47,190 nt of DNA. Origin: a virus. Where the stretch lies: positions 1 to 47,190 of the IMG/VR virus record IMGVR_UViG_3300030202_003733; one strand, given 5' to 3'. Of the stretch, positions 11,379 through 41,168 are shown in pieces (positions within the stretch are counted from its first letter, which is position 1; every line of letters starts with the position of its first letter). The notes beneath the pieces were generated by a model that was not told the origin of the DNA, did no database searches, and was given only the letters and a program-made list of their open reading frames with translations. Both the position numbers and the translations under genes were made by a program.

Positions 11379-11414
11379 GCTTTAATTAGTTTTTATATTT
11401 GCAAATCTCAAAAT

Positions 11415-11495
11415 TTACTTTGGTGGTTTTTTGCCTTTCCATTTGTCAAGCATGTTTAATATTTTATTGCCTATCTTTTGTAACACCTTACGCAT
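11415..11495 (-). CDS. 26-aa basic amphipathic peptide
   Basis: ATG 11495 follows GGAGTGAG at suitable spacing. The product is MRKVLQKIGNKILNMLDKWK plus a KKPPK-type tail: strongly cationic, with leucine and isoleucine spaced as on one helix face. It resembles membrane-active or nucleic-acid-binding micropeptides. With so few residues, coding status rests on the ribosome site and composition only. Confidence 0.45.
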   Translation of the reverse strand: MRKVLQKIGNKILNMLDKWKGKKPPK

Positions 11496-12011
11496 ATTCT
11501 CACTCCTTTAATCTAGAAAATTTTTACCGCCGTTTTTTCTTGCCGAGACCAGTGAAACCTCCATTTTGTTTAATATCGCCCAGGGGGAGATAGAACTCAC
11601 TTGGGGTAGTGGGGGGTAGTATACTCTCGTGGGGTTAGTAAGAGCAACATACGCATTTCTAAATCTCCAAATTTTTTATGCGTACCGCTCGTGTACCAGG
11701 GGCTGGGCGCGGGTAGCGGGCTAGGGTAGCACTCACATTCCGGGGGGAGGGGGTAGTAGCTCCTCCCACTAACATTATAACACACTTGCCCTAGTAAGGC
11801 AAGCACAAACTTGTCAAGCTAAAATAAAACGTATGTCAACTCCCCCTAGTAGCTATTGACAAAGGGGGAGTAAGGGGATAGTGAGCTGATCTGCTCCTAC
11901 CCTCCTCTCGCACCCCATCTCTACCCCATAGAAAACAATAAACTTTTTCTTGTTGCGGAGTGAAGGGGACCACTAGGGTCCACCCTCCCCCACTTCCTCC
12001 CACTTCTCCCC
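11496..12011 (-). other. G/C-run-rich non-coding stretch with GGGGTAGT repeats
   Basis: No convincing gene lies in these about 515 bases. On the plus strand GGGGTAG(T) and related runs recur (near 11601, 11609, 11630, 11717, 11750), with CTAG tetranucleotides and C-runs on the other side (near 11840 and 11995). Short inverted repeats include CTTGCC...GGCAAG (about 11788-11805) and GGACCACTAGGGTCC (about 11968). Possible uses are an origin, a packaging or recombination site, or a long regulatory region separating the structural-type genes from the early array. Two short frames (11597-11806, 11836-12048) cross it but lack ribosome sites and credible composition. Confidence 0.45.
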
Positions 12012-12206
12012 CTAGAGGAAAAGATTCTTGTTGTGGCTTACGAGCCATGTACCGTTACGCCCCTTCATGGCACGAAAGATACTCTCTCCCGTGCGTGGGA
12101 TGGTGACCAGTACGGTCGTGCGCTCACGCTCTACTGGGAGTCCAGCCGAGCGAAGTGCTTTGACCATAGCGTTGAGGTTCGTGCTGTCCGCGATGAATGA
12201 AACCAT
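12012..12206 (-). CDS. Small early-type protein, unknown (64 aa)
   Basis: The start is set at ATG 12206 because GGGAGAGACAAC precedes it, with an array promoter (TTGCAT at 12253-12258) upstream; the longer frame to 12311 would run through that promoter. The protein has an alpha/beta look: an N-terminal helix (LNAMVKALRSAGL), a strand (TTVLVTIPR), then a basic stretch. Last gene of the leftward array. Function unknown. Confidence 0.75.
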   Translation of the reverse strand: MVSFIADSTNLNAMVKALRSAGLPVERERTTVLVTIPRTGESIFRAMKGRNGTWLVSHNKNLFL

Positions 12207-12268
12207 GTTGTCTCTCCCTTGTTGCATATATCTATTAACCGTTTGAGTAGAAGATGCAAGTTTTATTT

Positions 12269-13105
12269 TTATGACCTCGGTTGTACTTCTACTGCATCTG
12301 CACTTAGCCACTCAACATCTTTCCAACCTCCACGAGTAGGCTCCTCCCCAAACCCGATACCGATGCGTCCTTCCTTCGCCCAGAATATTTTTCCTACCTC
12401 TCCGGTGCGCTCTCCTTCGAGGACACAAACAAGTTCTCCCTTCTGCGGTAGCGCCTTGGTGCGCTCGACTCGCTCGTCGCACAGGGCGTTCATGTAGTCA
12501 ACCCACGTCATGCCCTCTGGCTTGTTGGCTACTGCCTCAACGTTACGCAGGTACGTCCAGTGCTTGTTGCCCTCGTCGTCACGGATGCCGATGCGGGTTC
12601 CGTACTGTCCCTCGCGCTCCCAGAAAAGAATACCTTCTGTACCCACAGCAACCTTACGTCCCCGTGCGACCACGACGCGGGAGTTCGTGTGAACCGTCTT
12701 GCACCAGCGCTCTGCGTCCTCCTCAGCGCGTTGTGCTGCCCTCTCTGCGTTCTCCTGCTCAATGACCGCAAGTTCGGCCAGAGCGCCCTCCTCGCCACCC
12801 TCACGGAAGGCAAGCACCGTGCGGCTACCACCCTTGGTGAACCACTCGACCTCAACCAGCACTTCCTCGCTGGCGTCCACGACAACCTTCTTGGAGCGGT
12901 TCGGGTCTTCGGAGTGACCTACCTCAATCTCGCAGATGGTCGCGCTCTCACGGTCCCAGACGTTGGTGTACCACTGTGTCCCCCAGACGGAGAAGAACAC
13001 GCGGATGGCGCGAGAAGCCTGTGGGCGTCCGTTGCCCATGCCAAGCACCGCGTCCTGAAAGTCTGCAACCGTCTCGCCCGCTTCGTTCGTATAGATGATA
13101 GCCAT
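12269..13105 (-). CDS. Protein with two KOW/SH3-like segments, GC-rich gene
   Basis: The 278-aa protein has two related beta-barrel segments in its C-terminal half: GRKVAVGTEGILFWEREGQYGTRIGI (about 148-174) and GELVCVLEGERTGEVGKIFWAKEGRIGIGF (about 223-252). Both follow the KOW pattern (polar-hydrophobic strand, G-x-x-G-x-I/V). The N-terminal half has FFSVWGTQWYTNVWDRE and an Ala/Glu-rich helix. Such barrels usually bind RNA, DNA or RNA polymerase. The gene is clearly GC-richer than the flanking AT-rich regions. It has its own promoter (TTGCGT about 13149) and a GGAGGGAAC ribosome site. Confidence 0.8.
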   Translation of the reverse strand: MAIIYTNEAGETVADFQDAVLGMGNGRPQASRAIRVFFSVWGTQWYTNVWDRESATICEIEVGHSEDPNRSKKVVVDASEEVLVEVEWFTKGGSRTVLAFREGGEEGALAELAVIEQENAERAAQRAEEDAERWCKTVHTNSRVVVARGRKVAVGTEGILFWEREGQYGTRIGIRDDEGNKHWTYLRNVEAVANKPEGMTWVDYMNALCDERVERTKALPQKGELVCVLEGERTGEVGKIFWAKEGRIGIGFGEEPTRGGWKDVEWLSADAVEVQPRS

Positions 13106-13144
13106 GTTCCCTCCTGTTGTGTACTACACTTAACCGATTGAGAA

Positions 13145-13173
13145 GAGGACGCAAGTTTATTTTTTGCGTCCTC
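13145..13173 (-). promoter_or_regulatory. Hairpin embedding the -35 box of the 12269-13105 gene
   Basis: The 9-base inverted repeat GAGGACGCA/TGCGTCCTC flanks an A/T-rich spacer, so that on the minus strand the TTGCGT -35 box lies inside the 3' arm. It follows the stop of the upstream basic-protein gene (13181) by a few bases. It may act as an attenuator/terminator for that gene, as an operator for the promoter, or both. Confidence 0.5.
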
Positions 13174-13180
13174 GCTTTCT

Positions 13181-13423
13181 TTACGCTGTGCGCCGCCAGA
13201 CACGGATGCGGGAGTCAGTGCTGCCTGTGTCCGACTCGCGGGAGAGTCGGTCCAACTCCGAGTCCAGTTCACGCATGAGCGCGGCGTGTGCCCTGCGACG
13301 GTCCTCGCGGAAGACTGCACGGAGTGCCCTGTCTTCGATGTTGGATGCGCGGGAGATGCTGCGCCCCTTCGCGTTTGCGCTGCGGTTGGTGCGGGGGTTT
13401 GCGGTGATTCGACGACGTGCCAT
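13181..13423 (-). CDS. Small highly basic protein (80 aa)
   Basis: The sequence is rich in Arg (MARRRITANPRTNRSANAKGR, then DRRRAHAALMRELD) with a helical C-terminal half. CAGAGGTCAAC precedes ATG 13423, and a TTGACA (13476-13481)-N16-TATATT (13454-13459) promoter lies upstream. It probably binds nucleic acid, as many early phage basic proteins do. No family recognised. Confidence 0.75.
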   Translation of the reverse strand: MARRRITANPRTNRSANAKGRSISRASNIEDRALRAVFREDRRRAHAALMRELDSELDRLSRESDTGSTDSRIRVWRRTA

Positions 13424-13477
13424 GTTGACCTCTGCTGTTGTTGTTGTGCTTACAATATAATCGATTGGGTTAGGCTG

Positions 13478-13645
13478 TCAAGTATTTTTTGTTTCTAGTT
13501 CTACAATCCCGTGTGTCTCACAGATGACCTGTGCCTTGGCGTAGCCCGCCTTGGTAGCGATAGCCCATGCCAACCCGTAGGGCATACCCTCGCGAGTCGT
13601 CGGTTGTCCCTGTGGGCTATTCCAAGTCTTAATCGTGTACATCAT
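13478..13645 (-). CDS. 55-aa early protein, unknown
   Basis: The frame starts at the double ATG 13645/13642 after GCGGGGGA, downstream of an array promoter (TTGACA about 13691, TATTAG). The protein reads MMYTIKTWNSPQGQPTTREG..., with a helical AWAIATKAGYAKAQVI core. Its TGA stop (13478-13480) lies inside the TTGACA -35 box of the next gene. Function unknown. Confidence 0.68.
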   Translation of the reverse strand: MMYTIKTWNSPQGQPTTREGMPYGLAWAIATKAGYAKAQVICETHGIVELETKNT

Positions 13646-13680
13646 TCCCCCGCTGTTGTGTGATAACTAATAACAAGCCC

Positions 13681-13902
13681 TCAGTCGCCTGTCAACCCAT
13701 CCTCGGTAAGAGTGATGCGACCGTGCTGGCTAACCGTGTGCCCACAGTCCTCACACTTGCTAGCTGCAACGAGCACCGCATCACCCGATGGCCCGCAGCA
13801 GTCATACTTCCGAGCAGGAGCGCCGCGTCTCCCACCGCTGGTGTTGACATTTTGAAGCGCCACGCCTTTCCCCATGTACCCACCGCACTCTCGACACTCC
13901 AT
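13681..13902 (-). CDS. Zinc-ribbon protein (73 aa)
   Basis: The start at ATG 13902 follows AAGGAGAAAAGAAC and a TTGCAC promoter. Cysteine pairs CRECGG (3-6) and CEDCGH (50-53) with a CC in between suggest a zinc ribbon. The longer frame to 14040 would cross the promoter and is not used. Function unknown. Confidence 0.72.
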   Translation of the reverse strand: MECRECGGYMGKGVALQNVNTSGGRRGAPARKYDCCGPSGDAVLVAASKCEDCGHTVSQHGRITLTEDGLTGD

Positions 13903-13957
13903 GTTCTTTTCTCCTTGTGTGTTCCTCTTAACTGGTCTGGGAACAGGTGCAAGTTTT

Positions 13958-14293
13958 TTATTCGTTGTTGATAAGTCTTCGTTCCAGATAACCAGTCTCG
14001 TTGGTTTCGTAATCCTCGGAGACACGGCAGGTGATACCAACTCTCTTTTGCTCGTACTGCCCCTGAGCAGACAAAGTTTTCTGCATCTCCTCTACCACTT
14101 TCTTGGCGCTGCGTAGGCTAGGCACCACTGGATTGCAGTTCATGTCATGCGCCAAGGGTGCCAACTTGTGCATCTCTCTCCATATCTTAATAGCGCTAAT
14201 CTTGTGGCGGGTGCAGCGCCACATGGTGTCTGTGAACGGGTAGTAAGTAAGGTCTTCTGGGCGGGGTTTAATATCGATGACTGTGATGTCCAT
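13958..14293 (-). CDS. Early protein, unknown (111 aa)
   Basis: ATG 14293 follows GTAGGAGGTAGC and an array promoter (TTGCAC about 14334-14339, TTAATAG). The product contains MDITVIDIKPRPEDLTYYPF, a central Lys/Met-rich helix and a polar C-terminus with CRVSEDYETNETGYLE. Nothing recognisable. Confidence 0.72.
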   Translation of the reverse strand: MDITVIDIKPRPEDLTYYPFTDTMWRCTRHKISAIKIWREMHKLAPLAHDMNCNPVVPSLRSAKKVVEEMQKTLSAQGQYEQKRVGITCRVSEDYETNETGYLERRLINNE

Positions 14294-14348
14294 GCTACCT
14301 CCTACAAACATCTATTAACCGTTCCACGTCAGTGTGCAAGTTTTTTAT

Positions 14349-14855
14349 TTACTCCCTCCGCAAAGTAATCTTACCACCACAGCCCTTATGAGTAAAGGTA
14401 ACTCCTCGCTGCTTATAGCCTCGCGGCATGCGTGCGCGATGCCCAAGGTTCCCGCAGACCTGACAATGCACCGCGATGGTCCTTTTCTGGCGGACTGCCG
14501 ACACATCATAGCTGTGGCACCGATGGTTTTTCTTCACGCCTGTGATGCGCGTCATTATTTCTTGAAACCTTCGCGTGTGTCCACGCTCATTGTACTTATG
14601 CACAAGATACGCATGAGTCATCTCATGAACCAAAGTGTTCTCAATCTTGTCGATTGGGTAGCCCAAGCTACTGAACAACTTATCAGAGAGGGAGATTTCC
14701 GTAGGCTCAAGCTCTTCACCGTTCCGAGAATATCTGCAATACCCAGAAGTTGTGGTGAGCCTGCGGTTCCACCTTAGCTTAATCGCTGGGACTTCGCAGT
14801 TGAAGTGTTCGATGTTGAGTTTCACAAACATGCGGTGTAGGTTTGGTTGTTCCAT
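14349..14855 (-). CDS. SprT-like zinc metalloprotease
   Basis: The 168-aa protein from ATG 14855 has the SprT/WSS1 layout: an N-terminal strand-helix region (AIKLRWNRRLTTTSGYCRYS), the HExxH zinc site VHEMTHAYLV (HEMTH 77-81) with a downstream GHTRRFQEIM, and a C-terminal zinc ribbon (CQVCG... and CGGKI). Eukaryotic SPRTN removes DNA-protein crosslinks; bacterial and phage roles are less clear. A role in stripping host proteins from DNA or repair is an inference. Promoter TTGCTC and the array leader precede it. Confidence 0.9.
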   Translation of the reverse strand: MEQPNLHRMFVKLNIEHFNCEVPAIKLRWNRRLTTTSGYCRYSRNGEELEPTEISLSDKLFSSLGYPIDKIENTLVHEMTHAYLVHKYNERGHTRRFQEIMTRITGVKKNHRCHSYDVSAVRQKRTIAVHCQVCGNLGHRARMPRGYKQRGVTFTHKGCGGKITLRRE

Positions 14856-16962: not shown

Positions 16963-17079
16963 TTAACTAACATCATAGACAACATATTTACCCCACTCAA
17001 GAAGGACGATTAGGTCGTCGTTACCAGAGACGAAGGTCATCGCTTCTGCTTCCCATAAAAAACTCTTTACTTCTTTCAT
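16963..17079 (-). CDS. 38-aa acidic early peptide
   Basis: ATG 17079 follows the standard leader AGGAGAGAAC and a promoter TTGACG (about 17127). The frame reads MKEVKSFLWEAEAMTFVSGN...LLEWGKYVVYDVS and ends 10 bases before the start of the 16952 gene. The perfect leader argues that it is translated. Confidence 0.6.
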   Translation of the reverse strand: MKEVKSFLWEAEAMTFVSGNDDLIVLLEWGKYVVYDVS

Positions 17080-17106
17080 GTTCTCTCCTGTTGTTGTACT
17101 AGTAGT

Positions 17107-17346
17107 TTAATGGGTCGGCTGGGATGCGTCAAGCATTTTCGCATTTTCATATACTCGGATGTACTCCCAACAGGAGCCTACCTGCCTACTGCCTTCGCCG
17201 CCCACACAGTGCCTCCATGCTGACTTGGCTCCCTTTTGTTTGCTGTACCTGCGAGCCGAGATGTCGCTGTGAAGGAATACGTCCTGCACGCCATGTTCAA
17301 AACAGATTTTGTAGGTACGCCCAACGCTTGTGTAGTTAAGTGGCAT
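17107..17346 (-). CDS. Early protein with scattered Cys/His (79 aa)
   Basis: The start at ATG 17346 overlaps the stop of the 17346-17447 micropeptide (TGATG). The sequence contains CFEHGVQDVFLHSD, RHCVGGEG and GSCWEYIRVYENAK; the cysteines and histidines could bind a metal. Function unknown. Confidence 0.7.
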   Translation of the reverse strand: MPLNYTSVGRTYKICFEHGVQDVFLHSDISARRYSKQKGAKSAWRHCVGGEGSRQVGSCWEYIRVYENAKMLDASQPTH

Positions 17347-17447
17347 CAGATAACTCCGTGGACTGTGAGGTTAGCCCAGACGAGCACGGTGCCGTAGACC
17401 CAGAGCAGCATCATAGCTGGGTGGGTGATAAAGTCTGCTAAGTCCAT
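17346..17447 (-). CDS. 33-aa membrane micropeptide
   Basis: ATG 17447 lies behind GCAGAGAGAGAAACAAA and a TTGACA promoter (about 17499). The sequence MDLADFITHPAMMLLWVYG then TVLVWANLTVHGVI makes one hydrophobic segment. TGA overlaps the next ATG. It is likely a membrane peptide translated first on this transcript. Confidence 0.58.
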   Translation of the reverse strand: MDLADFITHPAMMLLWVYGTVLVWANLTVHGVI

Positions 17448-17478
17448 TTTGTTTCTCTCTCTGCTTGGGTTGTGAAGT

Positions 17479-17886
17479 CTATTTAACCGATTTCAGAACC
17501 TTGTCAACCTCTTTCCAGTTAACAAGTCCAGATACATCTCGGTCATAAGCGTCCATAGTGCCGGGATCAGCAACCATATCCTTGGCCTGCTCGTCACTAA
17601 TACTATCGATACCGTGACTCCAAAGGTACGCACCAGCCCAACGCCAACCGTCCTCATAAGTCCAGCCACCAGTAAACTTTCCATGATAGCTTCGGGCAAG
17701 TTCCCAGATTCTTTTGTGGTTTTGGGAGGTGTCCGCAACGCTAGCGAGCAACTTCCGATTACTTTCTCCACGCCGGTAGACAGCAAAACTGTCGCTCATG
17801 CAAGCGGACCAATCATGATAGCGACACAGCCGCGCATACTCAGACAGGTTACACTTCGCTTTTGTTACATCAACCAAACCAATCAT
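17479..17886 (-). CDS. Early protein, unknown (135 aa)
   Basis: ATG 17886 follows GGGAGAGAACA and an array promoter (TTGACA about 17934). The N-terminus MIGLVDVTKAKCN resembles the MIGFVTHNEEE start of the 18894 gene. The middle is rich in aromatic residues (GGWTYEDGWRWAGAYLWSHG); the C-terminus is an acidic helix. Function unknown. Confidence 0.74.
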   Translation of the reverse strand: MIGLVDVTKAKCNLSEYARLCRYHDWSACMSDSFAVYRRGESNRKLLASVADTSQNHKRIWELARSYHGKFTGGWTYEDGWRWAGAYLWSHGIDSISDEQAKDMVADPGTMDAYDRDVSGLVNWKEVDKVLKSVK

Positions 17887-17936
17887 TGTTCTCTCCCGTT
17901 GTTGTGTATATATCTTAATGTATTGAGCGACCCCTG

Positions 17937-18224
17937 TCAAGCATTAATGATTGTTTGAATCACATCCTGCCCCAAAGTATTTGTGCCACCGTGAGCATCG
18001 ATAACCTTTTGCACCACTTCGATGGGCACCCAACCATAAACGGTGTCGGTTGGTTTATCTGGCTCCTCAGCGTATTCCATAAGCAGTTCTTCTCTCTGGG
18101 AAGGGAACCCCACCTCCACAGCGGTCCACGGTCCCACGTCGCTGCGAGGCGAACAGTAGCAAAACCCATTTGCTTGCACGCTCATAGTAAAACCATCATT
18201 ACATCGAATCTGTGGGAAGTTCAT
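17937..18224 (-). CDS. Early protein, unknown (95 aa)
   Basis: ATG 18224 is chosen over the GTG at 18230 because GGGAGG is correctly spaced and the start overlaps the upstream stop as ATGA. The protein includes CNDGF, FCYCSPRSD and VYGWVPIEVVQKVIDAHGG. Second gene of a two-gene transcript. Confidence 0.72.
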   Translation of the reverse strand: MNFPQIRCNDGFTMSVQANGFCYCSPRSDVGPWTAVEVGFPSQREELLMEYAEEPDKPTDTVYGWVPIEVVQKVIDAHGGTNTLGQDVIQTIINA

Positions 18225-18454
18225 GTCCACCCTCCCGCGATGGCAACGGACGCTACCTCTTCATAGGAAGGAACACCGTCACCGTCATCATGCCACGGGC
18301 TACCTTCATTAAGGCACACACCATGCTCGTCATAAAAGTCATAAAACCTATCGTCGTCGTTCTCTGGCTCCTTGCCTTGCCAGCATAGCTCTACGTCGAT
18401 AGTGCGGCCACCCATCTTATATTGTGCGACCACTTCGGTGTGTAGTTTTGACAT
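18221..18454 (-). CDS. Acidic early protein (77 aa)
   Basis: Begins MSKLHTEVVAQYKMGGRTID after AGGAGAGAACACA and a TTGACA promoter (about 18504). It is acidic, with a DDDRFYDFYDEHG stretch. Charge and size are typical of phage host-takeover proteins or DNA mimics, but nothing more specific can be said. Confidence 0.74.
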   Translation of the reverse strand: MSKLHTEVVAQYKMGGRTIDVELCWQGKEPENDDDRFYDFYDEHGVCLNEGSPWHDDGDGVPSYEEVASVAIAGGWT

Positions 18455-18476
18455 TGTGTTCTCTCCTGTCTTGTGT

Positions 18477-18692
18477 TTATATCTTAACGGGTTGTGTCTT
18501 GGTTGTCAAGGCATAAAAGTCTTGCCACGTCATGAAGCCTACACCATCTACCGCCATCCCACGAGGGCTGATAAATATATTCTCTTTCCTTTCGTCGTCT
18601 CTGCCTGAAACATTAAACCTCACAGACGACCACTTCTCCGTGCCCTGATCCGTCTCTTCATCAGTACCATCGGTCATAAAAATACGAAGCAT
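18477..18692 (-). CDS. Early protein, unknown (71 aa)
   Basis: Starts at ATG 18692 after AGGAGAAGAGAACA with promoter TTGACA about 18740. The sequence MLRIFMTDGTDEETDQGTEK...FNVSGRDDERKENIFISPRG suggests an alternating beta pattern. Function unknown. Confidence 0.73.
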   Translation of the reverse strand: MLRIFMTDGTDEETDQGTEKWSSVRFNVSGRDDERKENIFISPRGMAVDGVGFMTWQDFYALTTKTQPVKI

Positions 18693-18744
18693 TGTTCTCT
18701 TCTCCTGTTGTGTTTACTACTTAACAAGTTGTTGTTTGGTTGTC

Positions 18745-18893
18745 AACCAGAATGTGGGGGGTTCCCAACTTCCCCCCACCGAGCACAGCCTGACCTGAGA
18801 ATCACTCTCACGCTTACGCAACCACGAGATAGCTTACTGCTCGTAAGACTTACCCACTATCTCTCTGGCCTGTGCCCCCCACGGCCCTCCTTC
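18745..18893 (-). ncRNA. Candidate structured RNA between two array genes
   Basis: This stretch has no credible frame but several nested inverted repeats on the minus strand. GAGATAG...CTATCTC (7 bp) encloses CTTAC-GAGCA-GTAAG (5 bp). CACAGgCC...GGcaCTGTG-type pairing brackets that domain, and a GTGGGGGG...CCCCCCAC hairpin (8 bp, about 18751-18776) lies at the 3' side, next to the promoter of the 18692 gene. It may be a small RNA or a processed/terminator element of the 18894 transcript. No strong own promoter is seen. Confidence 0.5.
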
Positions 18894-19223
18894 TTATCCC
18901 TCAAGAGCGGAGTTTAAGGATGCTAGCATCTTTTCAACATTACGAAGTGCCCGCCCGTCCCGACCACCAACATTCCAAGTTTTAATCTGGCCTGGGCCTA
19001 CGTCGTAGTAACCATAGTTCGGTCCAGACTTCCAGTTGTAGATGGTAGCGACCGAGCCATCATCAAACTTAATATCCCATTCCCAGTCTACTTTGTAGCC
19101 ATCACTCTCATGAGGTTTGCCAAGCAGTTTAAGCAAATCCTGATAGTCCGCTTGGACATATCCCCGACGTGAAGTCATATTAACATTAACTTCTTCTTCA
19201 TTGTGTGTGACGAAACCAATCAT
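18894..19223 (-). CDS. Conserved phage hypothetical (109 aa)
   Basis: Starts at ATG 19223 after the exemplary leader ACAACAGGAGAGAACA and promoter TTGACA-N17-TAAGAT. The pattern WEWDIKFDDGSVATIYNWKSG...WNVGGRDGRALRNVEKML is a motif I recall from conserved hypothetical proteins of cyanophages and other marine myoviruses (DG-VATIYNW ... GG). Function unknown. Confidence 0.78.
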   Translation of the reverse strand: MIGFVTHNEEEVNVNMTSRRGYVQADYQDLLKLLGKPHESDGYKVDWEWDIKFDDGSVATIYNWKSGPNYGYYDVGPGQIKTWNVGGRDGRALRNVEKMLASLNSALEG

Positions 19224-19278
19224 TGTTCTCTCCTGTTGTTGTGTATACATCTTAATGTGTTTTGTTCCGGTTGTCAAG

Positions 19279-19386
19279 TGTTGCGGTTTCGGGATTTGAA
19301 CCCTCTCCTGATAGTGCTAGGGCACACACCCTTTTCCTATCGGTTCCCTACCAGACTGCTGTGTGGCAGCGGGAAACCCGCATAAA
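19279..19386 (-). ncRNA. tRNA-like small RNA with its own promoter
   Basis: The RNA read leftward from about 19394 is roughly 100 nt. The 3' part has a T-loop-like GGGTTCAAATCCC; its outer two pairs would be a tandem G-A/A-G. A 7-bp end pairing TGCGG(G)TT/AACCGCA follows, with one bulged G. Inside, CCGATAG pairs with CTATC(A)GG around a GGG-TGTGTG-CCC hairpin. No canonical anticodon arm can be drawn, so it is not a standard tRNA. It ends just before the promoter of the 19223 gene. Confidence 0.6.
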
Positions 19387-19400
19387 GTTGTTATATTCGT

Positions 19401-19429
19401 ATCTTAACTGGTAACCTTTCTATTGTCAA
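19401..19429 (-). promoter_or_regulatory. Promoter of the tRNA-like RNA
   Basis: TTGACA (19424-19429) and TAAGAT (19401-19406) are spaced by 17 bases, the same form as the mRNA promoters of the array. The -10 box contains the TAA stop of the 19404-19580 gene. Confidence 0.72.
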
Positions 19430-19580
19430 GGCTGCCTGTTGAATCCACGGCACCGTAGAACGTAAAGACCGCTGTCTCGCAGTCCTCACAGTGGTTAGGC
19501 CACTGTGCCCTGTTCTCTTCGTTCAGCTTGCAGCCACAGACCACACACTTGAACGGGTTTGACACTGGGCGGTGGGACAT
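19404..19580 (-). CDS. Zinc-ribbon protein (58 aa)
   Basis: ATG 19580 lies three bases after the stop of the 19584 gene. The product MSHRPVSNPFKCVVCGCKLN...HCEDCETAVFTFYG has CVVC...CEDC spaced for a zinc ribbon. The last codons overlap the promoter of the tRNA-like RNA, and the TAA stop is part of its -10 box. Confidence 0.68.
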   Translation of the reverse strand: MSHRPVSNPFKCVVCGCKLNEENRAQWPNHCEDCETAVFTFYGAVDSTGSLDNRKVTS

Positions 19581-19583
19581 GCG

Positions 19584-19856
19584 TCACCGCTTTTTAGGCT
19601 TAGTGACGAGTCCGTTAACCATCTTGTAGGCTTGCACGCGGCGAGAAAACTCCTCTCCGTTGCCAGCTTCGTCGTGATAGGCATGAATAATGCCACCGGA
19701 CGACACGCCAATCCATCGGCTACGACGGTTAGTCCATGCAAACTTAACCCACTGCCCGACCCTAAGTCTGGTCCGACCAGACGTAAACCTGTCAATGTTG
19801 TTATCATCAATATAGATGGTGGAAGTGAAACTCCCCAAGTTCTTACTCGCTTTCAT
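19584..19856 (-). CDS. Basic early protein (90 aa)
   Basis: Starts at ATG 19856 after AAGGAGGAAAT and promoter TTGACA-N17-TAAATA (-35 near 19898). The sequence has a beta-rich middle (LRVGQWVKFAWTNRRSRWIGV) and a Lys-rich end. Possibly an SH3-like nucleic-acid binder. Confidence 0.74.
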   Translation of the reverse strand: MKASKNLGSFTSTIYIDDNNIDRFTSGRTRLRVGQWVKFAWTNRRSRWIGVSSGGIIHAYHDEAGNGEEFSRRVQAYKMVNGLVTKPKKR

Positions 19857-19879
19857 ATTTCCTCCTTGTGTGAAACTAT

Positions 19880-20119
19880 TTATCCTGTTGGCTGTTGACT
19901 GTCAACACTTTCTTCAAATAAATCCTTTAGCTGGTCCTTGTACATCTCTACATCATAAGACCAGCCCTCGTCTGCTGCGAGTTTGCCAACAACGTCTGCA
20001 TCCCATGCGTCCCTTAGCTTGGCCTCCGCAAACAGAACCAAGTCTTTCATGTCCCAATACGAAACAATAAGTTCCGCCAAAGTCTCTCGGTTCTCAATGT
20101 TGTTCTCAAGGTCAATCAT
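19880..20119 (-). CDS. Acidic helical early protein (79 aa)
   Basis: Coupled to the upstream gene by TAATG at 20119. MIDLENNIENRETLAELIVSY then a Asp/Glu-rich helix (DVEMYKDQLKDLFEES) suggest a small acidic helical protein. Function unknown. Confidence 0.74.
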   Translation of the reverse strand: MIDLENNIENRETLAELIVSYWDMKDLVLFAEAKLRDAWDADVVGKLAADEGWSYDVEMYKDQLKDLFEESVDSQQPTG

Positions 20120-20532
20120 TATGCCCCCTTTTCATTCGGAGTAGGAAGGACTGGGGTTGCGGGAGGGACATGCAGGAACGCCTGCTCCTCGTCCCACTCA
20201 AGCGACACGGTATAGTTCTTGATGATGTCCCAAGGGTTCTCGTACCAACCCCCCACGTTACCCTCTGTGGACTCTGGGTAGTCGTGACAAGCCTCCACAA
20301 TAAGATAATCCTCATCGTCGAAGACACTGACTAGTTCGCTATAGAGATTTATCAAACCGTTGTCGCTGGTGTTATACCATTTAATATGCTCTTCATAGAA
20401 AAGAACATGGCCATCCTGTGACACGCTTGCTGGCTGTACGAACCACTCATCAAGAGTCTTCCTAGACTTTGCGCTAAGATTATCAAACACTTCTTTTTTT
20501 AATGCTACTGCGACATCACTACGGATACCCAT
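20119..20532 (-). CDS. Early protein, unknown (137 aa)
   Basis: Starts at ATG 20532 after ACAGGGAGCTAACA and promoter TTGACG-N17-TAAACT. It contains MGIRSDVAVALKKEVFDNL, an acidic domain with VFDDEDYLIVEACHDYPE and a GGWYENPWDIIKN segment. It looks like conserved phage hypothetical proteins that begin MGIRADV; identity not established. Confidence 0.76.
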   Translation of the reverse strand: MGIRSDVAVALKKEVFDNLSAKSRKTLDEWFVQPASVSQDGHVLFYEEHIKWYNTSDNGLINLYSELVSVFDDEDYLIVEACHDYPESTEGNVGGWYENPWDIIKNYTVSLEWDEEQAFLHVPPATPVLPTPNEKGA

Positions 20533-20590
20533 TGTTAGCTCCCTGTTGTTGTATTTACAGTTTAATGAATAAAGTTTGCGCCGTCAAGTA

Positions 20591-20797
20591 TTAATCGTCA
20601 TAGACTACTGCGTAGCCGTTTGACTCGATATAGTCAATAGCGTCTGCTTCCAAAGCATCGATGGTGTCAGGATTTGTGTCATCATCTACATCTTCTAGCC
20701 AGTCCACCCAGCCAAGGCTCTCGGCGAAGCTAAGTGTCTCACCGAAGCACTCGTAAGTGTAGATTGTTTTTAACTGCCCTTGTATGATCTCTGTCAT
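20591..20797 (-). CDS. Small acidic early protein (68 aa)
   Basis: Starts at ATG 20797 after CAGGGGGAAAAC and promoter TTGACT-N17-TAAGAT. Strongly acidic (GWVDWLEDVDDDTNPDTIDA). It might mimic DNA or bind a basic host protein; this is speculation from charge only. Confidence 0.73.
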   Translation of the reverse strand: MTEIIQGQLKTIYTYECFGETLSFAESLGWVDWLEDVDDDTNPDTIDALEADAIDYIESNGYAVVYDD

Positions 20798-20854
20798 GTT
20801 TTCCCCCTGTTGTGTTTATATCTTAATCTGTCGTTTCAGTTAAGTCAAGAAGTT

Positions 20855-21220
20855 TTATGCTTCGATGGGTTCTGGGGGGATGATGACAATCGTGTTTTTG
20901 GGATCCTTCATGACCTCAGAAAACTTCTGGGGGTTGAGGACTCTCATGTCTTCGTCAACTACGACTTGAAGAGCCGCAGCGGGTCCATAGTTTTGGCGGC
21001 GCTCTTCTGCGGCTGCGTCCACAATAAGACCAGTAAGTTGCTTTGCTAAGTCACCAATCGCGTCAGTCAACTCTGCGGTAGCCTCTTTGCTAGAGTCTTT
21101 GTCTACTCCGCTCAAGACAAGGTGACCCGTCTCCAAACCAGACTTAACATAAACTAAAGCGTCGGCCAAGTCCAAAACAGTCTCGACGTCCATGCTCACT
21201 TTTGCTTCACTATCTTTCAT
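20855..21220 (-). CDS. Early protein, unknown (121 aa)
   Basis: Starts at ATG 21220 after AAGGGGAGCACACA with promoter TTGACA-N17-TAAGTA (-35 about 21266). A helical acidic first half (VETVLDLADALVYVKSGLE) is followed by AAAEERRQNYGPAAALQVVVD and a Pro-rich end. It is the gene immediately downstream of the large RNA locus. Function unknown. Confidence 0.75.
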   Translation of the reverse strand: MKDSEAKVSMDVETVLDLADALVYVKSGLETGHLVLSGVDKDSSKEATAELTDAIGDLAKQLTGLIVDAAAEERRQNYGPAAALQVVVDEDMRVLNPQKFSEVMKDPKNTIVIIPPEPIEA

Positions 21221-21274
21221 TGTGTGCTCCCCTTTGGAAACTACTTATTGTTTAATACTGAACCTGTCAAGAAA

Positions 21275-21918
21275 AAATATAAAGGGTAGGAGCTTTAGCA
21301 TATGTAGTCTCCATACTTGTGACCATCTGCGGTAGATGTATACACACCGGGGTTTAAGTCCGTTCACAAGTTTCCTCCCTGTTCTTACTATCTCTAGCAC
21401 GGAACAGCACGCTGTACTATCGGCAAATGTTCTGCGTTTAATCAGAGAGCTAGCTACTCTCTCATCAAGTGCGCCTTACACTTCAACAGCTTGGTACTGC
21501 ATCCATGCAAGCCCTTTCGGGACGATTGTCAAGTTGCCCCAACAACCAGAGAGGCTTCCACCCCCGATAGTTTGACTCTGCGGAACGACCCGCTTACCAA
21601 GAAACCGTTCTTAGTAGTTTGGTGTTTACCGTTGCCGCGATGAATCAACAAGTCCGCGACTTTCATTGGCAGCACTCCAGCGGTGGTACGCTGACTCTTG
21701 CCTTCAAGCACTGAGCAATGTTCGGGACTACCACGTCCTTTAACCTGCTCCCCTTCAAGTGTAGGCCCCAGCACTTGCTTGAACAAGCTACTATCCTACA
21801 AGGGTTTTCTCTATTGTCCGATATGGACACCCAAAGAGCGGTAAACAACTCACGGGGGTTTATCGACCGGAGAACTCGGTCACGTTAGTAATGTTAAAGA
21901 TCAATAAAACTTTCTGTT
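21275..21918 (-). ncRNA. Large structured RNA (~640 nt), ornate-RNA class candidate
   Basis: About 640 bases with no credible gene lie between a near-consensus promoter and a final hairpin/T-rich end (about 21275-21290). Many clean stems fall along the minus strand. Examples are GACCG/CGGTC (21881-21865), TGTAGG/CCTACA around GCTTG/CAAGC, GAGCA/TGCTC (21750-21746/21717-21713), AGAGAG/CTCTCT (21462-21444) and an 8-bp ACTTGTGA/TCACAAGT (21371-21364/21322-21315). Two hairpins, GGAC-GTGGTA-GTCC (21738-21725) and CAGCG-TACCAC-CGCTG (21693-21678), have perfectly complementary 6-nt loops, a kissing-loop geometry. Size, independence and phage/tRNA-rich context recall GOLLD/ROOL giant RNAs; a sequence match to either was not tested. 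Confidence 0.72.
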
Positions 21919-21924
21919 TCCATC

Positions 21925-21953
21925 AATGTAATGTGTTGTGTATTAACTGTCAA
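21925..21953 (-). promoter_or_regulatory. Promoter of the large structured RNA
   Basis: TTGACA (21948-21953) is followed by 17 bases and TACATT (21925-21930); predicted start near 21918. An A/T-rich block (AATATTAT) lies directly upstream, as for most array promoters. Confidence 0.72.
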
Positions 21954-21966
21954 TAATATTTTTTAA

Positions 21967-22158
21967 AAAAGATGAGGGGTGTCAAGACCACCATAGCAAC
22001 CTGCTTGACTTCAGGCCACAACACAACAGAGAACAACTGCTATGGTGGAGGATACCTTTCGTAGTACCCTTAGAAAATGTAGTAGCCTACTTGACGATTA
22101 TTGTTTGAATCCCAACATCGGTACGCGGTCTACGTTACACTCCCTAATCCCTCACTTG
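21967..22158 (-). ncRNA. Small RNA with a leader-antisense hairpin loop
   Basis: About 190 nt from a promoter (TATATT at 22166-22171) to an oligo-U end (21965-21970). The 5' TGAGGG (22154-22149) can pair with 3' CCCTCA (21978-21973), closing the molecule. A perfect 11-bp stem CCACCATAGCA/TGCTATGGTGG (22048-22038/21998-21988) presents a 39-nt loop. The loop starts with bases 22037-22017, GTTGTTCTCT then GTTGTGTTGTG. These are antisense to the shared mRNA leader (ACAACAG + AGAACA, with the GAG of the Shine-Dalgarno bulged out). A trans-acting regulator of the early gene array is the obvious hypothesis. Confidence 0.66.
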
Positions 22159-22165
22159 TATTTAC

Positions 22166-22193
22166 AATATAACCTGTCTATAAACCCTGTCAA
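22166..22193 (-). promoter_or_regulatory. Promoter of the leader-antisense RNA
   Basis: TTGACA (22188-22193), a 16-base spacer and TATATT (22166-22171): one of the best matches to sigma70 consensus in the window. Confidence 0.75.
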
Positions 22194-22417
22194 GTATAAT
22201 CTGGAAAAGAAAGAACATTATCTTTGTCGTCCATCTCGGACCCATCTTCCTCTTCGACTTCTTCGACTTCTTGTGCGTGAGCGTCTAGTTCTTTATACCT
22301 CTCCAGAATGGAGCGCACGCCCCGCGCTGCCAGAACAGACTCTTTGGCACAAGACTCTAGGTACTCTGCCATACTCTCGAAAAACTCTAAGGGCAACTCA
22401 ATCGTTTCTTGATTCAT
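22190..22417 (-). CDS. Acidic helical protein (75 aa)
   Basis: Overlaps the stop of the 22414 gene by ATGA. MNQETIELPLEFFESMAEYLE...RYKELDAHAQEVEEVEEEDG is helical and very acidic at the C-terminus. Its stop region overlaps the -35 of the leader-antisense RNA. It is cotranscribed with the ArdC-like gene and could be its partner or inhibitor (inference). Confidence 0.76.
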   Translation of the reverse strand: MNQETIELPLEFFESMAEYLESCAKESVLAARGVRSILERYKELDAHAQEVEEVEEEDGSEMDDKDNVLSFPDYT

Positions 22418-23283
22418 GCGGCCTTCTCCTTTTTAATATCGTGCTCCATAATAAGATTTGAAGCCAACTGTGCAGCCTTAGCCGCACGGTACACAGCCCT
22501 CTTATCATTACGAAGCAAATCTAGCCATGAAGAAATGTAACTTTCTTGGTTTTGCATCACCTCTGGGCGTTCGATGCCCAGTTTGGCGCACAAGAACGCC
22601 GAACCCATAGAGGCAATCATCTCCTCAAGAGCGAAGGCCTCTTCGTCTTTGCCAAAGTTATCGCGGTTGAGCCTGCTTTTGTGGCCGGTACTGTGAACCA
22701 TCTCTTGCAGAAGAGTAGCCCAGTAGTGGTCCGCTGTGTGAAACTGCTCTGGGTCCGGTAACCCAATGAGATCAGTGTGAGCTTTGTACCACGCGCTGTC
22801 CTGTCCGTGCAGAACTTTAGCACCATAGCCGCCCAAAATAGCCGAGCATCGTTCATAACCGACACTTGGGTCTTGAGGACAAGACTCAACCACTGGGGGG
22901 TTCTCGCACTGCTCCGCATTGTAGACACGGTAGTACCGCAAGAAAGGAATCTTCTGGACGGTGCCATCCCCGTTATCCTTGTCAAACATATTCCAGAATA
23001 CGATTGGGGTCCAGTTCTTGGCCTCATCGGACTTAATAGTGATTTTAGCCTTCTTAGCTTGATTCCAAGTGATCCAACGAGAGTCGTCGTAACCAGACGC
23101 CCAGAGAAGCGGAACATTAATACCTGTGTAGGTCTGCCCCTCCTCCGGGTCCATCGAGGTCATGTTAAAAGGAAGTCCTGCCATCGCACCATTCTTCCAA
23201 GGCTTACTCCACGGGGGAGTGCCAGCCTCAAGAGCAGTAATGATGCGGTCAGTAACCATTTGATATACATCGACTTTAGCCAT
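22414..23283 (-). CDS. ArdC-like antirestriction/ssDNA-binding protein with altered zinc site
   Basis: The product is 289 aa. The N-terminal region fits the ArdC ssDNA-binding domain (MVTDRIITALEAGTPPWSKPW, then TYTGINVPLLW and YYRVYNAEQ). The C-terminal part fits the zincin-like domain, but the usual HExxH reads QEMVHSTGHKSRL (QEMVH 193-197): the first zinc ligand is Gln. A downstream acidic helix (FALEEMIASMGSAFLCAKLG) is kept. ArdC proteins protect incoming DNA from restriction and can be delivered with plasmids. The Gln suggests reduced or lost peptidase activity with the DNA-binding role retained (inference). Own promoter TTGACA (23331-23336)/TAATAT (23308-23313). Confidence 0.9.
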   Translation of the reverse strand: MAKVDVYQMVTDRIITALEAGTPPWSKPWKNGAMAGLPFNMTSMDPEEGQTYTGINVPLLWASGYDDSRWITWNQAKKAKITIKSDEAKNWTPIVFWNMFDKDNGDGTVQKIPFLRYYRVYNAEQCENPPVVESCPQDPSVGYERCSAILGGYGAKVLHGQDSAWYKAHTDLIGLPDPEQFHTADHYWATLLQEMVHSTGHKSRLNRDNFGKDEEAFALEEMIASMGSAFLCAKLGIERPEVMQNQESYISSWLDLLRNDKRAVYRAAKAAQLASNLIMEHDIKKEKAA

Positions 23284-23307
23284 TTGCCTCTCCTTACTTA
23301 CAATAAC

Positions 23308-23341
23308 ATATTAACAAAGTGTCGCTTAGCTGTCAAGCGAC
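23308..23341 (-). promoter_or_regulatory. Promoter of the ArdC-like gene with inverted repeat over the -35
   Basis: TTGACA (23331-23336), 17 bases, TAATAT (23308-23313). The -35 is wrapped in the inverted repeat GTCGCTT...AAGCGAC (23321-23341), an operator-like arrangement. The stop codon of the upstream 23326 gene lies inside. Confidence 0.62.
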
Positions 23342-23457
23342 TCTGTGGGTTCCCAATACCAGTGGTCTTTATGTTCAGAGTAGCTATCGGACTCGATATA
23401 CTCTAACCACTGTTCTTCTAGTTCAAGTTCTTCGTTGTCTTCCGGGTCGTTGTTCAT
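23326..23457 (-). CDS. 43-aa very acidic peptide
   Basis: ATG 23457 follows AAGAGGAGATTGGTC and an array promoter TTGACG-N17-TAAGTT. The peptide MNNDPEDNEELELEEQWLEY continues with Glu, Asp, His and Trp. Net charge is strongly negative. Its last codons overlap the promoter of the next gene. Possibly a DNA mimic or inhibitor, by charge alone. Confidence 0.6.
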   Translation of the reverse strand: MNNDPEDNEELELEEQWLEYIESDSYSEHKDHWYWEPTESLDS

Positions 23458-23516
23458 GACCAATCTCCTCTTGCTTTCAAAATAAACTTAACCGACACAC
23501 TTTGGTGCGTCAAGGA

Positions 23517-24692
23517 TTAATCTTTACCAATCGCTAGAATCTTCTCATTCGTCTGGAAGTACGGGTTCTTTGCGTAGTAGGGTGTAGTGATCCAGAGTCG
23601 CTGGCACTTAGAGGCGACCGGCTTTGCTGCACACATGTCCGTAAGAACAATATGCCCATCGAAGTTACGCTGGTTGACCCACTTGGTAGGGGGGTTGAAG
23701 TCGGTCCCGCCGTACCTGACGCGAGTCCAGTCTTTAGTCTCTCCCTTACGCCAGACATATACAGAGTCCTCACATACCTCGCTGTCGAAAGGAACGACTG
23801 TGAAGGTCGCTAGCTTCGCAAACTTGTTCAGCAGGGAAAAGAATGTTTTAAGCATCTCGTCATTCACGGAACCAGACTGGTCGATGGAGATGGCGATGTT
23901 TGCCACCCTCTTCACCCTCTTTGCGGGCCACTGATAGGGTGCTCGCTTGTTTACTCTACGAACCGTGCTCTGCTTGTTGCTAGCCTGCGATGTCTTGATG
24001 AAGTAACGCAGAACCTTCGCAGGGTCAATCGTTTTGCTGATAGACTTCCTGAGTTTATTCCTGACTTCGCTTGGCACGGAGCCATAAGATTTATTCTCTT
24101 TCTCACACTCTTGGACTGCTTCGGCGATTACCTCTCGCAATCGTTCCTCGACCACATCCTTCATTCCTTCGGGCACCTCGCCCCACCCGTCATGGCTGTC
24201 GAGAGTGTCAGGGAGACTGTTGCCTCCCTCGCCTTCGCCGTCGTCAGACTCCTCTTGCTCCTGCTGCTCCTGCTTCAGCTTTTCGAAATACCACTCGGCA
24301 GCCATGCCAGAGGGCCAACCTTCAAAGTGGCCCACGCCTGGAATACAGCCCTCTTGCGGTAGCTTATCTGCGATGTGACCATTGATGGCTAAGTCCGCAG
24401 CTACGTTCCACAGCTTTGTCATACCCTCTTCGGGGAGTCGCGTAGTGACGTGCTTAAAGAGGAGGTGGTAAAACTCGTGCATGAGCACACCAGTGCGCTC
24501 AACATCTGTTAGTCCTTCCATCCAAGTCGGGTTGTAAAGCATCTGTAGCTTACCCGTCTCTTTGTCGGCCCAGACCCCAGCAGTGGGGACCGCCGTGCTT
24601 GGCTTCTTGCTGACCCTGCGGGATATTGCCGCGAAGAACGGCTCGTCCAGCAGAAGTCTATGTGTGTGCCTGTTAAGATCAAACTTGGACAT
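23517..24692 (-). CDS. VWA-domain metallopeptidase-like protein (DUF2201 type)
   Basis: The product is 391 aa. The N-terminal zincin-like domain has HEFYHLLFKH (HEFYH 72-76), an acidic Gln/Glu-rich linker follows (about 135-160), and the C-terminal VWA domain has MIDAS DQSGS at 271-275, then TDFNP and LTDM strands. This is the arrangement of putative metallopeptidases that pair with MoxR AAA+ ATPases, and such an ATPase gene is directly upstream (24751). The pair probably works as a substrate-remodelling chaperone/peptidase. Promoter TTGACA-N17-TATAGT at 24715-24743. Confidence 0.9.
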   Translation of the reverse strand: MSKFDLNRHTHRLLLDEPFFAAISRRVSKKPSTAVPTAGVWADKETGKLQMLYNPTWMEGLTDVERTGVLMHEFYHLLFKHVTTRLPEEGMTKLWNVAADLAINGHIADKLPQEGCIPGVGHFEGWPSGMAAEWYFEKLKQEQQEQEESDDGEGEGGNSLPDTLDSHDGWGEVPEGMKDVVEERLREVIAEAVQECEKENKSYGSVPSEVRNKLRKSISKTIDPAKVLRYFIKTSQASNKQSTVRRVNKRAPYQWPAKRVKRVANIAISIDQSGSVNDEMLKTFFSLLNKFAKLATFTVVPFDSEVCEDSVYVWRKGETKDWTRVRYGGTDFNPPTKWVNQRNFDGHIVLTDMCAAKPVASKCQRLWITTPYYAKNPYFQTNEKILAIGKD

Positions 24693-39027: not shown

Positions 39028-40593
39028 TCACTCAGTTTCCACTATGGCGAAATTAGTCGTTAATAGGGTTGATGCAGCGGACGCTGCGTTTTGTAAGGCA
39101 CACCTTGTGACCTTAACAGGGTCTATTACACCAGCTTCAAACATATTAACAACTTCATCTTGCACAAAATCATAACCCGTCTCGGGACCTTCGTCAACAA
39201 TCCTCGACGTAATTATGTCTGGTGACAGTCCGGCGTTTTGGCACATCTTCCTAAGGGGCTCGTACACTGATGACATAATAACATCAACACCGACCTGTTG
39301 TTCAGGGTTATCTACAGTAATTTCCAAGTCTTTAGATGCCCTTATGAGCGCTATTCCACCGCCGGGAACCATTCCCTCCATCCTGGCCGACTTAACCGCC
39401 TCTAGTGCATCTTCTACTCGGTGTTTCTTCTCAATCATTTCAACCTCAGTTGCAGCACCGACTTTAATGATTGCTACCCCGCTGGCCAGTCGCGTCACCC
39501 TTTCCTGGACCAACTCCGCCTCGCGGATAGAATCTGTTTGGCCCAATACAGCTTTAAGGGTCTCGATTCTATTATCGATCTCCTCCAGATCGCCCTTGCC
39601 TCCAACAATAATTGTTTCATTCTTTTTGATGAAAATTCTTTGAGCAAGCCCCAGGTGTTCGAGTTTGGCATTCTTTAATTTGATAGAACTGTCAATATAC
39701 TTTGCGTTTGTGGCAACACAAAGATCCATCAAAATGTTTTTCCTCTCCTCCCCATATTTGGGAGCTTTAACAGCAACGACCTTCATGGAGCCGCGCATTG
39801 AATTCATAATCAGTGCCGCTAGTGCCTGCCCCTCGATCTCAGGCGAGATAATAACGAGGGCCCTGGCTTCTCTGGCTACCACCTCTAGGATTGGCAGCAA
39901 GTCCTGTAGGTTGTCAACCTTCTCCTCAGTGACCAAAATTAAAGGATCGTCATATTTAACTGATGCCGATCTCTCGTCAGTTATGAATGCTGTCGCCGCG
40001 TAACCAGAATCAAACCTAAAACCCTCAACCAAATCAAGGGTAGTATCAATAGACTTGGCCTCTTCCACCGTTACTGAGCCATCTTTCCCGGCACAGCTAA
40101 TTGCCTTAGCAACTAAAGCGCCTATGTGTACGTCGTTGTTAGAAGAGATGGTGGCAATGTGACGTATGTCGTCCTCAGTTCTGATTGGAGTAGACATCTC
40201 GGCCAAACGATCAACCAACCCTGCCACAGCCTTATCTATCCCCCTCTTTAGCTCTATGGGGGATACTCCCGATAGAACATACTTTTGTGATTGTTCTAAA
40301 ATAGCCCTTGCAAGCACAGTTGCGGTAGTAGTTCCGTCACCCGCCAAAGAGTTGGTTTCTTCGGATGCCTGTTTGAGAATTTGTACCGCTGCGTTTTCGA
40401 AAGGATCTTCCAATTCAATAAATTTTGCAACCGTAACTCCATCTTTAGTTATGATCGGATTTTTATTTTTTGCAGCCAAGATAACATTTCTGCCCCTCGG
40501 ACCTAGTGTAGATGCGACATTGTCAGTCAGCTTTTTGACACCACTTAAAATTTTGCTTGTTAAAATATTACCGTCACTGTAAATCTTGCTCAT
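39028..40593 (-). CDS. groEL: Phage GroEL-type chaperonin
   Basis: The product is 521 aa from ATG 40593, which overlaps the upstream stop (ATGA). Group I chaperonin signatures are present: LGPRGRNVIL with KDGVTVAK (30-57), the ATP site GDGTTTATV (85-93) and a C-terminal MVPGGGIALIRA. The apical domain is present in full length. The normal GGM-repeat tail is absent (ends FAIVETE). No GroES gene is visible in the window. Phage chaperonins of phiKZ/EL-type viruses can work without a co-chaperonin; whether this one does is unknown. Likely helps fold phage proteins. Confidence 0.96.
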   Translation of the reverse strand: MSKIYSDGNILTSKILSGVKKLTDNVASTLGPRGRNVILAAKNKNPIITKDGVTVAKFIELEDPFENAAVQILKQASEETNSLAGDGTTTATVLARAILEQSQKYVLSGVSPIELKRGIDKAVAGLVDRLAEMSTPIRTEDDIRHIATISSNNDVHIGALVAKAISCAGKDGSVTVEEAKSIDTTLDLVEGFRFDSGYAATAFITDERSASVKYDDPLILVTEEKVDNLQDLLPILEVVAREARALVIISPEIEGQALAALIMNSMRGSMKVVAVKAPKYGEERKNILMDLCVATNAKYIDSSIKLKNAKLEHLGLAQRIFIKKNETIIVGGKGDLEEIDNRIETLKAVLGQTDSIREAELVQERVTRLASGVAIIKVGAATEVEMIEKKHRVEDALEAVKSARMEGMVPGGGIALIRASKDLEITVDNPEQQVGVDVIMSSVYEPLRKMCQNAGLSPDIITSRIVDEGPETGYDFVQDEVVNMFEAGVIDPVKVTRCALQNAASAASTLLTTNFAIVETE

Positions 40594-41168
40594 GATACCT
40601 CCATATTTTCTGTATGATTTGGCAAGGTCAAAACACCCACAGAGAACCCGCGCAAGCCAGCATCTCCTTCCCACGCGCCTTCGTTCATTCTGTAACCCTT
40701 CTTTATGCTGCTTTGTATAATTTTAACTCCCAAGTCGGGGGAGTTCTCCGTAGGACAATACGCTAAATAAGTGTGCCCATACGAGCCATTCACCACCTCA
40801 TCGTCCTCCATCGTTTCCTTGTCATTCAACTCAAGTTTGCGCCATCGCTGTATGACATGCCATCTACCAGGAGTTAGCGGTGGGGCCTCGTCCTCAACAA
40901 TGGCACAATAAGATATGTCTCCACCCAATTTTTCTCGGATTGCTTCCAAGGCACTCCAGGGTTTATCGCGATCATAAACATTTGCTCGCTTCCACCAATC
41001 AAGGTCTTGACCAGCGTAGCGTGACACTGAGCTTTCGCGAACGTCATCCGCTATACTAAGACACCACATTGCACAAAGCGTGCAACATGGCAAGTTTTCT
41101 TTAGTGGCGATATGGTTTAATGCGCCACCTTTGTTCAGGGCAGTCCAACCCTTTATATCTATGTTCAT
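40590..41168 (-). CDS. Possible papain-fold (NlpC/P60-like) protein
   Basis: The product is 192 aa. The N-terminal part has PCCTLCAMWCLSIADD, with several Cys candidates. Later GRWHVIQRWRKLEL and NGSYGHTYLAYCP give a Cys...His order seen in papain-like folds. The assignment is tentative. It lies between clpP and groEL with tight spacing, so a role in protein processing is possible. Confidence 0.7.
   Translation of the reverse strand: MNIDIKGWTALNKGGALNHIATKENLPCCTLCAMWCLSIADDVRESSVSRYAGQDLDWWKRANVYDRDKPWSALEAIREKLGGDISYCAIVEDEAPPLTPGRWHVIQRWRKLELNDKETMEDDEVVNGSYGHTYLAYCPTENSPDLGVKIIQSSIKKGYRMNEGAWEGDAGLRGFSVGVLTLPNHTENMEVS

Follow-up and report, generated by a model that had tools for sequence, protein, structure and literature searches.

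A candidate gene for a large, structured noncoding phage RNA with a predicted kissing-loop pair

The window analysed here, which covers positions 1-47190 of an IMG/VR virus record of 183 kb, carries on its minus strand, from 21918 to 21275, what is on sequence grounds a free-standing gene for a large structured noncoding RNA of ~640 nt. A sequence-only reading had proposed a large structured phage RNA with a loop-loop interaction at this place, leaving its family open, and that observation was confirmed in nearly all its details: comparison with a homologue upheld the structured RNA through a fold test with antisense control, the lack of a codon pattern and the degree of conservation, while membership of a known family was not borne out. 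The joint explanation considered best, and held to be moderately probable, is that of a free-standing phage gene whose product would be a folded large noncoding RNA, transcribed early, secured by a kissing lock and having a scaffold or decoy role.

The RNA lies within a 969-nt stretch bounded by a 75-aa gene, placed after an ArdC-type antirestriction/metallopeptidase gene (22414-23283, minus strand; Pfam ArdcN and MPTase-PolyVal), and by a 121-aa gene (20855-21220). On the minus strand, this stretch holds a small RNA-like unit (~22165-21975) and then the large RNA. The consensus promoter previously recognised is present at 21953-21925, with TTGACA at 21953-21948, a 17-nt spacer and TACATT at 21930-21925, the RNA start being expected near 21918 and its end near 21275 in UUUAUAUUUUUU. 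This T-rich run directly follows the stem AGGGAGGA/UCCUACCCU, which is the long-range pairing earlier pointed out near the 3' end, and both belong to a small terminator-like 3' domain (21275-21379, minus strand).

Use of the neighbouring VWA-metallopeptidase gene as scan query yielded 68 loci, among which the RNA is present only in L002, identical to the window at the RNA, and in L003, which comes from a different phage (ArdC and p75 being 89% and 52% identical at the amino acid level, respectively). RNAs of the window and L003 are 92.9% identical over 536 nt, with 38 substitutions in 539 aligned nt. Identities are lower in the flanking genes, at 83.8% (VWA gene), 81.8% (ardC), 74% (p75) and 70% (p121), and third codon positions differ at 124 of 290 in ardC and at 148 of 392 in the VWA gene. 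Ten Ns in the L003 scaffold hide ~60-70 nt near the RNA 3' end, including the 5' arm of the 3' stem, and the last 36 nt after this gap agree at 97%. The promoter stretch of the window is missing from L003, where the RNA is directly preceded by another promoter, TTGACA-17-TAAGTT; both genomes keep a promoter despite sequence turnover. Comparative evidence from these two lineages indicates that the RNA is real, and that it is far better conserved than its neighbours apparently because its fold matters.

Selection on the fold was evaluated by placing the same types of substitution at random along the window RNA (150 times for the sense strand). When forced onto the window's own fold, a measure that uses the window fold alone and a single comparison, the L003 sequence reaches -193.8, equal to its minimum energy, against -161.2 ± 8.8 for the random placements, none of the 150 being as good. 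Similarly, the consensus energy is -196.7 against -167.6 ± 7.8, again with none of 150 as good. On the contrary, the antisense control showed no effect, since 57 of 100 random placements were as good for the consensus and 84 of 100 for the fixed fold. The best energy reached by the changed sequence, used as a third measure, fails to separate the strands because it is low on both (2 of 150 sense and 5 of 100 antisense placements). At the level of individual pairs, the consensus fold, which is derived from the same two sequences that are counted on it and represents two lineages, as L002 is identical at the RNA, contains no broken pairs, 12-13 one-sided consistent changes and two compensatory A-U to G-C changes; on the window-only fold six pairs are broken in L003, compared with 11.3 ± 2.3 in the random placements. 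Substitutions in the homologue thus keep the fold on one strand only, as looked for in a structured RNA gene, and these comparisons show selection acting on the predicted fold of the minus strand.

The minus strand of the window is predicted to fold at -223.8 kcal/mol, with z = -4.75 (20 shuffles) or -3.7 (30 shuffles), compared with z = -1.9 for the plus strand in the 30-shuffle run. Its minimum-energy fold displays 14 hairpin loops, GUGGUA and UACCAC among them, and the consensus fold with L003 comprises 23 helices, in line with the many hairpins originally described. All its elements lie on the minus strand. An outer long-range stem (21908-21896 with 21395-21384; span 21384-21908) closes the main domain, with 11 pairs kept and one bulged base missing in L003. 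Within it, the long-range stems 21859-21847 with 21572-21560 and 21846-21839 with 21631-21624 close a multi-branched core (21560-21859), in which a CCCCC to CCCTT change between the homologues is retained as G-U pairs. In the two-sequence consensus fold, compensatory A-U to G-C changes fall in the hairpin at 21769-21793 and in the arm at 21713-21750, whose loop is GUGGUA (21734-21729). The arm at 21668-21702 carries its kissing partner UACCAC (21688-21683), and a further hairpin (21438-21468) shows the 7-nt loop UAGCUAG.

Hairpins GGAC-GUGGUA-GUCC (21738-21725) and CAGCG-UACCAC-CGCUG (21693-21678) occur exactly as first reported, both in the unconstrained minimum-energy fold, and their 6-nt loops are complementary throughout. 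A loop-loop match of at least 6 nt was found in 6 of 150 dinucleotide shuffles, and between two short loops (up to 8 nt) in none of the 150. In L003 the pair becomes GUGGUA/UAUCAC, a change to G-U that leaves all six pairs possible; no other complementarity of at least 5 nt between unpaired regions of the consensus fold is kept in both sequences. Considering that the two arms are adjacent (~10 nt apart) and of similar length, the most likely role of the kissing pair is that of a lock inside a single RNA molecule. The sole change in the 7-nt loop (UAGCUAA in L003) falls outside its self-complementary UAGCUA, which is kept; this palindrome is a possible symmetric dimer contact, although a weak indication by itself, and is reminiscent of the symmetric contacts made by loops in OLE and GOLLD (PMC12286853).

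In the preferred explanation, host-type RNA polymerase would probably transcribe the RNA early from its own sigma-70-like promoter, the early timing being suggested by its position next to ArdC, in a block of small genes that have promoters of their own. The transcript would fold into one closed multi-branched domain in which a 6-bp loop-loop contact ties two neighbouring arms, with the small 3' domain doubling as terminator. It may then act as a stable structural RNA, most likely, to judge from its position, as a scaffold or decoy for a host or phage complex to which it would bind while the host is taken over.

The same loops could instead join RNA copies into a ring or cage that encloses or scaffolds something, as in GOLLD and ROOL or in the phi29 packaging RNA. 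The 6-nt loops being paired throughout and conserved, and the palindromic loop changing only outside its palindrome, are consistent with such contacts, and large phage RNAs of similar size homo-oligomerise via kissing and symmetric loops (PMC12286853). Nonetheless, with arms only ~10 nt apart pairing within one molecule is at least as easy, and palindromic loops are not rare by chance, which leaves this reading doubtful, if worth retaining. Self-assembly of the RNA is a real possibility given that GOLLD and ROOL form RNA-only cages via kissing loops and A-minor contacts (PMC12286853), and by this analogy we regard it as rather unlikely but conceivable. The more specific proposal that the RNA represents a new large phage RNA class, sequence-unrelated to GOLLD and ROOL, which would form an early homo-oligomeric particle through GUGGUA/UACCAC and its palindromic loops, we judge unlikely as a whole.

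Whichever way the kissing pair works, the RNA could serve in counter-defence or host takeover, perhaps as a decoy for a host nuclease, a defence RNP or the ribosome. Its location next to ArdC, in a gene block with repeated TTGACA-17-TAAGAT promoters, and its patchy, accessory-gene-like distribution point in this direction. These arguments derive from the neighbourhood, and the ArdC of this type is confined to the same lineages as the RNA, with which it may merely share history; the decoy function is accordingly put forward only tentatively.

To our knowledge, very few classes of large 'ornate' noncoding RNA are known in bacteria and phages. Two phage large-RNA classes are RNA-only cages of unknown purpose (PMC12286853). 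The RNA described here would add an independent phage case, unrelated to these but equally large, in which the fold is conserved and a loop-loop pair defined, and opens concrete tests of whether large phage RNAs generally self-assemble and of their role in host takeover.

Whether the RNA belonged to a known family or was new had been left open by the sequence-only reading, and the outcome is negative for every Rfam 15 family, GOLLD and ROOL included, and positive for novelty within the collections searched. Rfam 15 detected only tRNAs over the window, and cmscan of the RNA stretch at E<=5 with permissive filters returned no family. None of the models named at the outset matches the RNA: GOLLD (RF02032) and ROOL (RF03087), searched alone, gave no match at the RNA in this genome, the former yielding only a 4.9-bit chance match elsewhere in G000 (138 kb), and neither exceeded the cut-off in 24 relatives; the Rfam models of OLE RNA and HEARO likewise found no match at the RNA. 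The same is true of phi29-type pRNA. Group I and II introns gave no Rfam match and there is no interrupted gene, the flanks of the RNA being separate intact genes and the RNA having its own promoter. Five tRNAs are located at 27.3-28.8 kb, and the RNA, at a distance of 5.3-6.9 kb, is near them but outside a tRNA island. Within the limits of Rfam and of the collections searched, the RNA is to be classed as a new family among the large ornate phage RNAs. That it might be a distant, unrecognised member of GOLLD, ROOL, OLE, HEARO or the self-splicing introns is suggested by its size, phage setting and tRNAs within 7 kb, but is very unlikely in view of the empty searches at E<=5 and with GOLLD and ROOL alone, and of the lack of an interrupted gene.

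Among the closest systems, the phi29 packaging RNA (pRNA) is a phage RNA with two mutually complementary loops, a feature that the RNA shares, but at ~170 nt it is far shorter; it is also tied to the phi29 motor, and its Rfam model finds no counterpart here. ROOL resembles the RNA in being phage-encoded, of similar length (574 model positions) and multi-branched with loop-loop contacts; the RNA differs in having no covariance-model match and in tRNAs 5-7 kb off rather than adjacent. GOLLD is also phage-encoded and large with loop-loop contacts, but the RNA is unmatched by its model, is shorter than many GOLLD RNAs (over 800 nt) and has no tRNA inside. GOLLD env-38 is of marine metagenome origin (PMC12286853). 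OLE is similar in size (~600 nt), and its dimer depends in part on a symmetric palindromic loop, which is AGCU in some OLE RNAs (PMC12286853), comparable to the palindromic loop found here; OLE occurs mostly in Gram-positive extremophile bacteria (PMC12054373), in contrast to the RNA, which is phage-borne and has no Rfam match.

That the region is instead a frameshifted protein gene or leader, or a coding sequence in decay, is hardly credible, since the coding score is negative and a decayed gene is not expected to be the best conserved DNA of its locus. No open frame with a positive coding score exists in the 969-nt stretch, and the only long frame of the RNA (85 codons, 21786-21529), whose internal ATG start resembles that of a small-ORF family (MKVADL compared with MKVGDLV), has this ATG changed to ATA and suffers a 1-nt frameshifting insertion in L003, with no third-position excess. 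Substitutions between window and L003 follow no codon period, and indels of a single nucleotide occur. The earlier judgement that no credible protein frame exists is thus supported by both the negative score and the loss of the frame in the homologue, and a homologue that keeps a protein frame over the stems is the opposite of L003, in which the frame is broken and the consensus stems are kept. As the simple gene caller overlooks some real genes, such as a SprT-like-looking one at 14.3-14.9 kb, absence of a gene call was never used as sole evidence. Matches of 20 nt by BLAST to RNA positions 244-281 in many relatives correspond to the MKVGDLV start of the small-ORF family, not to RNA homologues. 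Four relatives (L081, L082, L083 and L084) contain small-ORF arrays starting with MKVGDLV or a near variant, an expanded small-protein family.

The search for homologues, proposed from the start, gave one diverged homologue (L003) and L002, identical at the RNA, and no further copy in IMG/VR, INPHARED and PLSDB. Exact or gapped DNA patterns and frame-derived peptide patterns identified none either. Two covariance models made from the window and L003 sequences were run on another 48 related phage records and identified no third copy. No match to the RNA came from phage and plasmid records, or from GTDB bacterial genomes scanned with a single exact 24-nt pattern. When the 121-aa neighbour, ArdC and the 85-codon frame served as queries, only L002 and L003 were returned, and no ArdC was found in bacterial genome contigs. 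Three other contigs matched the gapped pattern GTGGAAGCC..GGCAACTTGAC, but by chance and in unrelated sequence. Relatives also have long noncoding gaps lying 1-9 kb downstream of the VWA gene; tried as positional homologues, these fall into clusters of their own that have no sequence relationship to the RNA. Within these searches, the known distribution of the RNA appears very narrow.

The small unit upstream of the RNA (21975-22165, minus strand, ~190 nt) is a second structured RNA candidate. It is preceded by a separate promoter (22193-22166), its closing stem encompasses the entire molecule and is followed by T6, and its fold has z = -3.3 (200 shuffles) or -2.0 (30 shuffles); it is absent from L003. 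On the minus strand of 17000-24000, 17 promoter-like sites were counted compared with 7.5 expected, many small genes having their own TTGACA-17-TAAGAT. The stretch 11379-12268 looks noncoding: it contains C/G runs (ctaccccc, ccccccgg) and for the most part lacks a convincing gene. By eye, with no BLAST link, it resembles C-run noncoding stretches common to a cluster of 35 gaps downstream of the VWA gene in relatives, and is perhaps an origin or regulatory region. In a relative, L064, positions 13006-14403 of the plus strand form a long noncoding region with no Rfam match and many clean hairpins (z = -8.1 for a 400-nt piece, 12 shuffles); it also contains imperfect repeats, centred on CGTGCCAA...TTTACATAAC, of which partial copies occur in L064 and L014. 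Finally, the minus strand of the window encodes a GroEL-like phage chaperonin at 39028-40674 (PHROG 5725).
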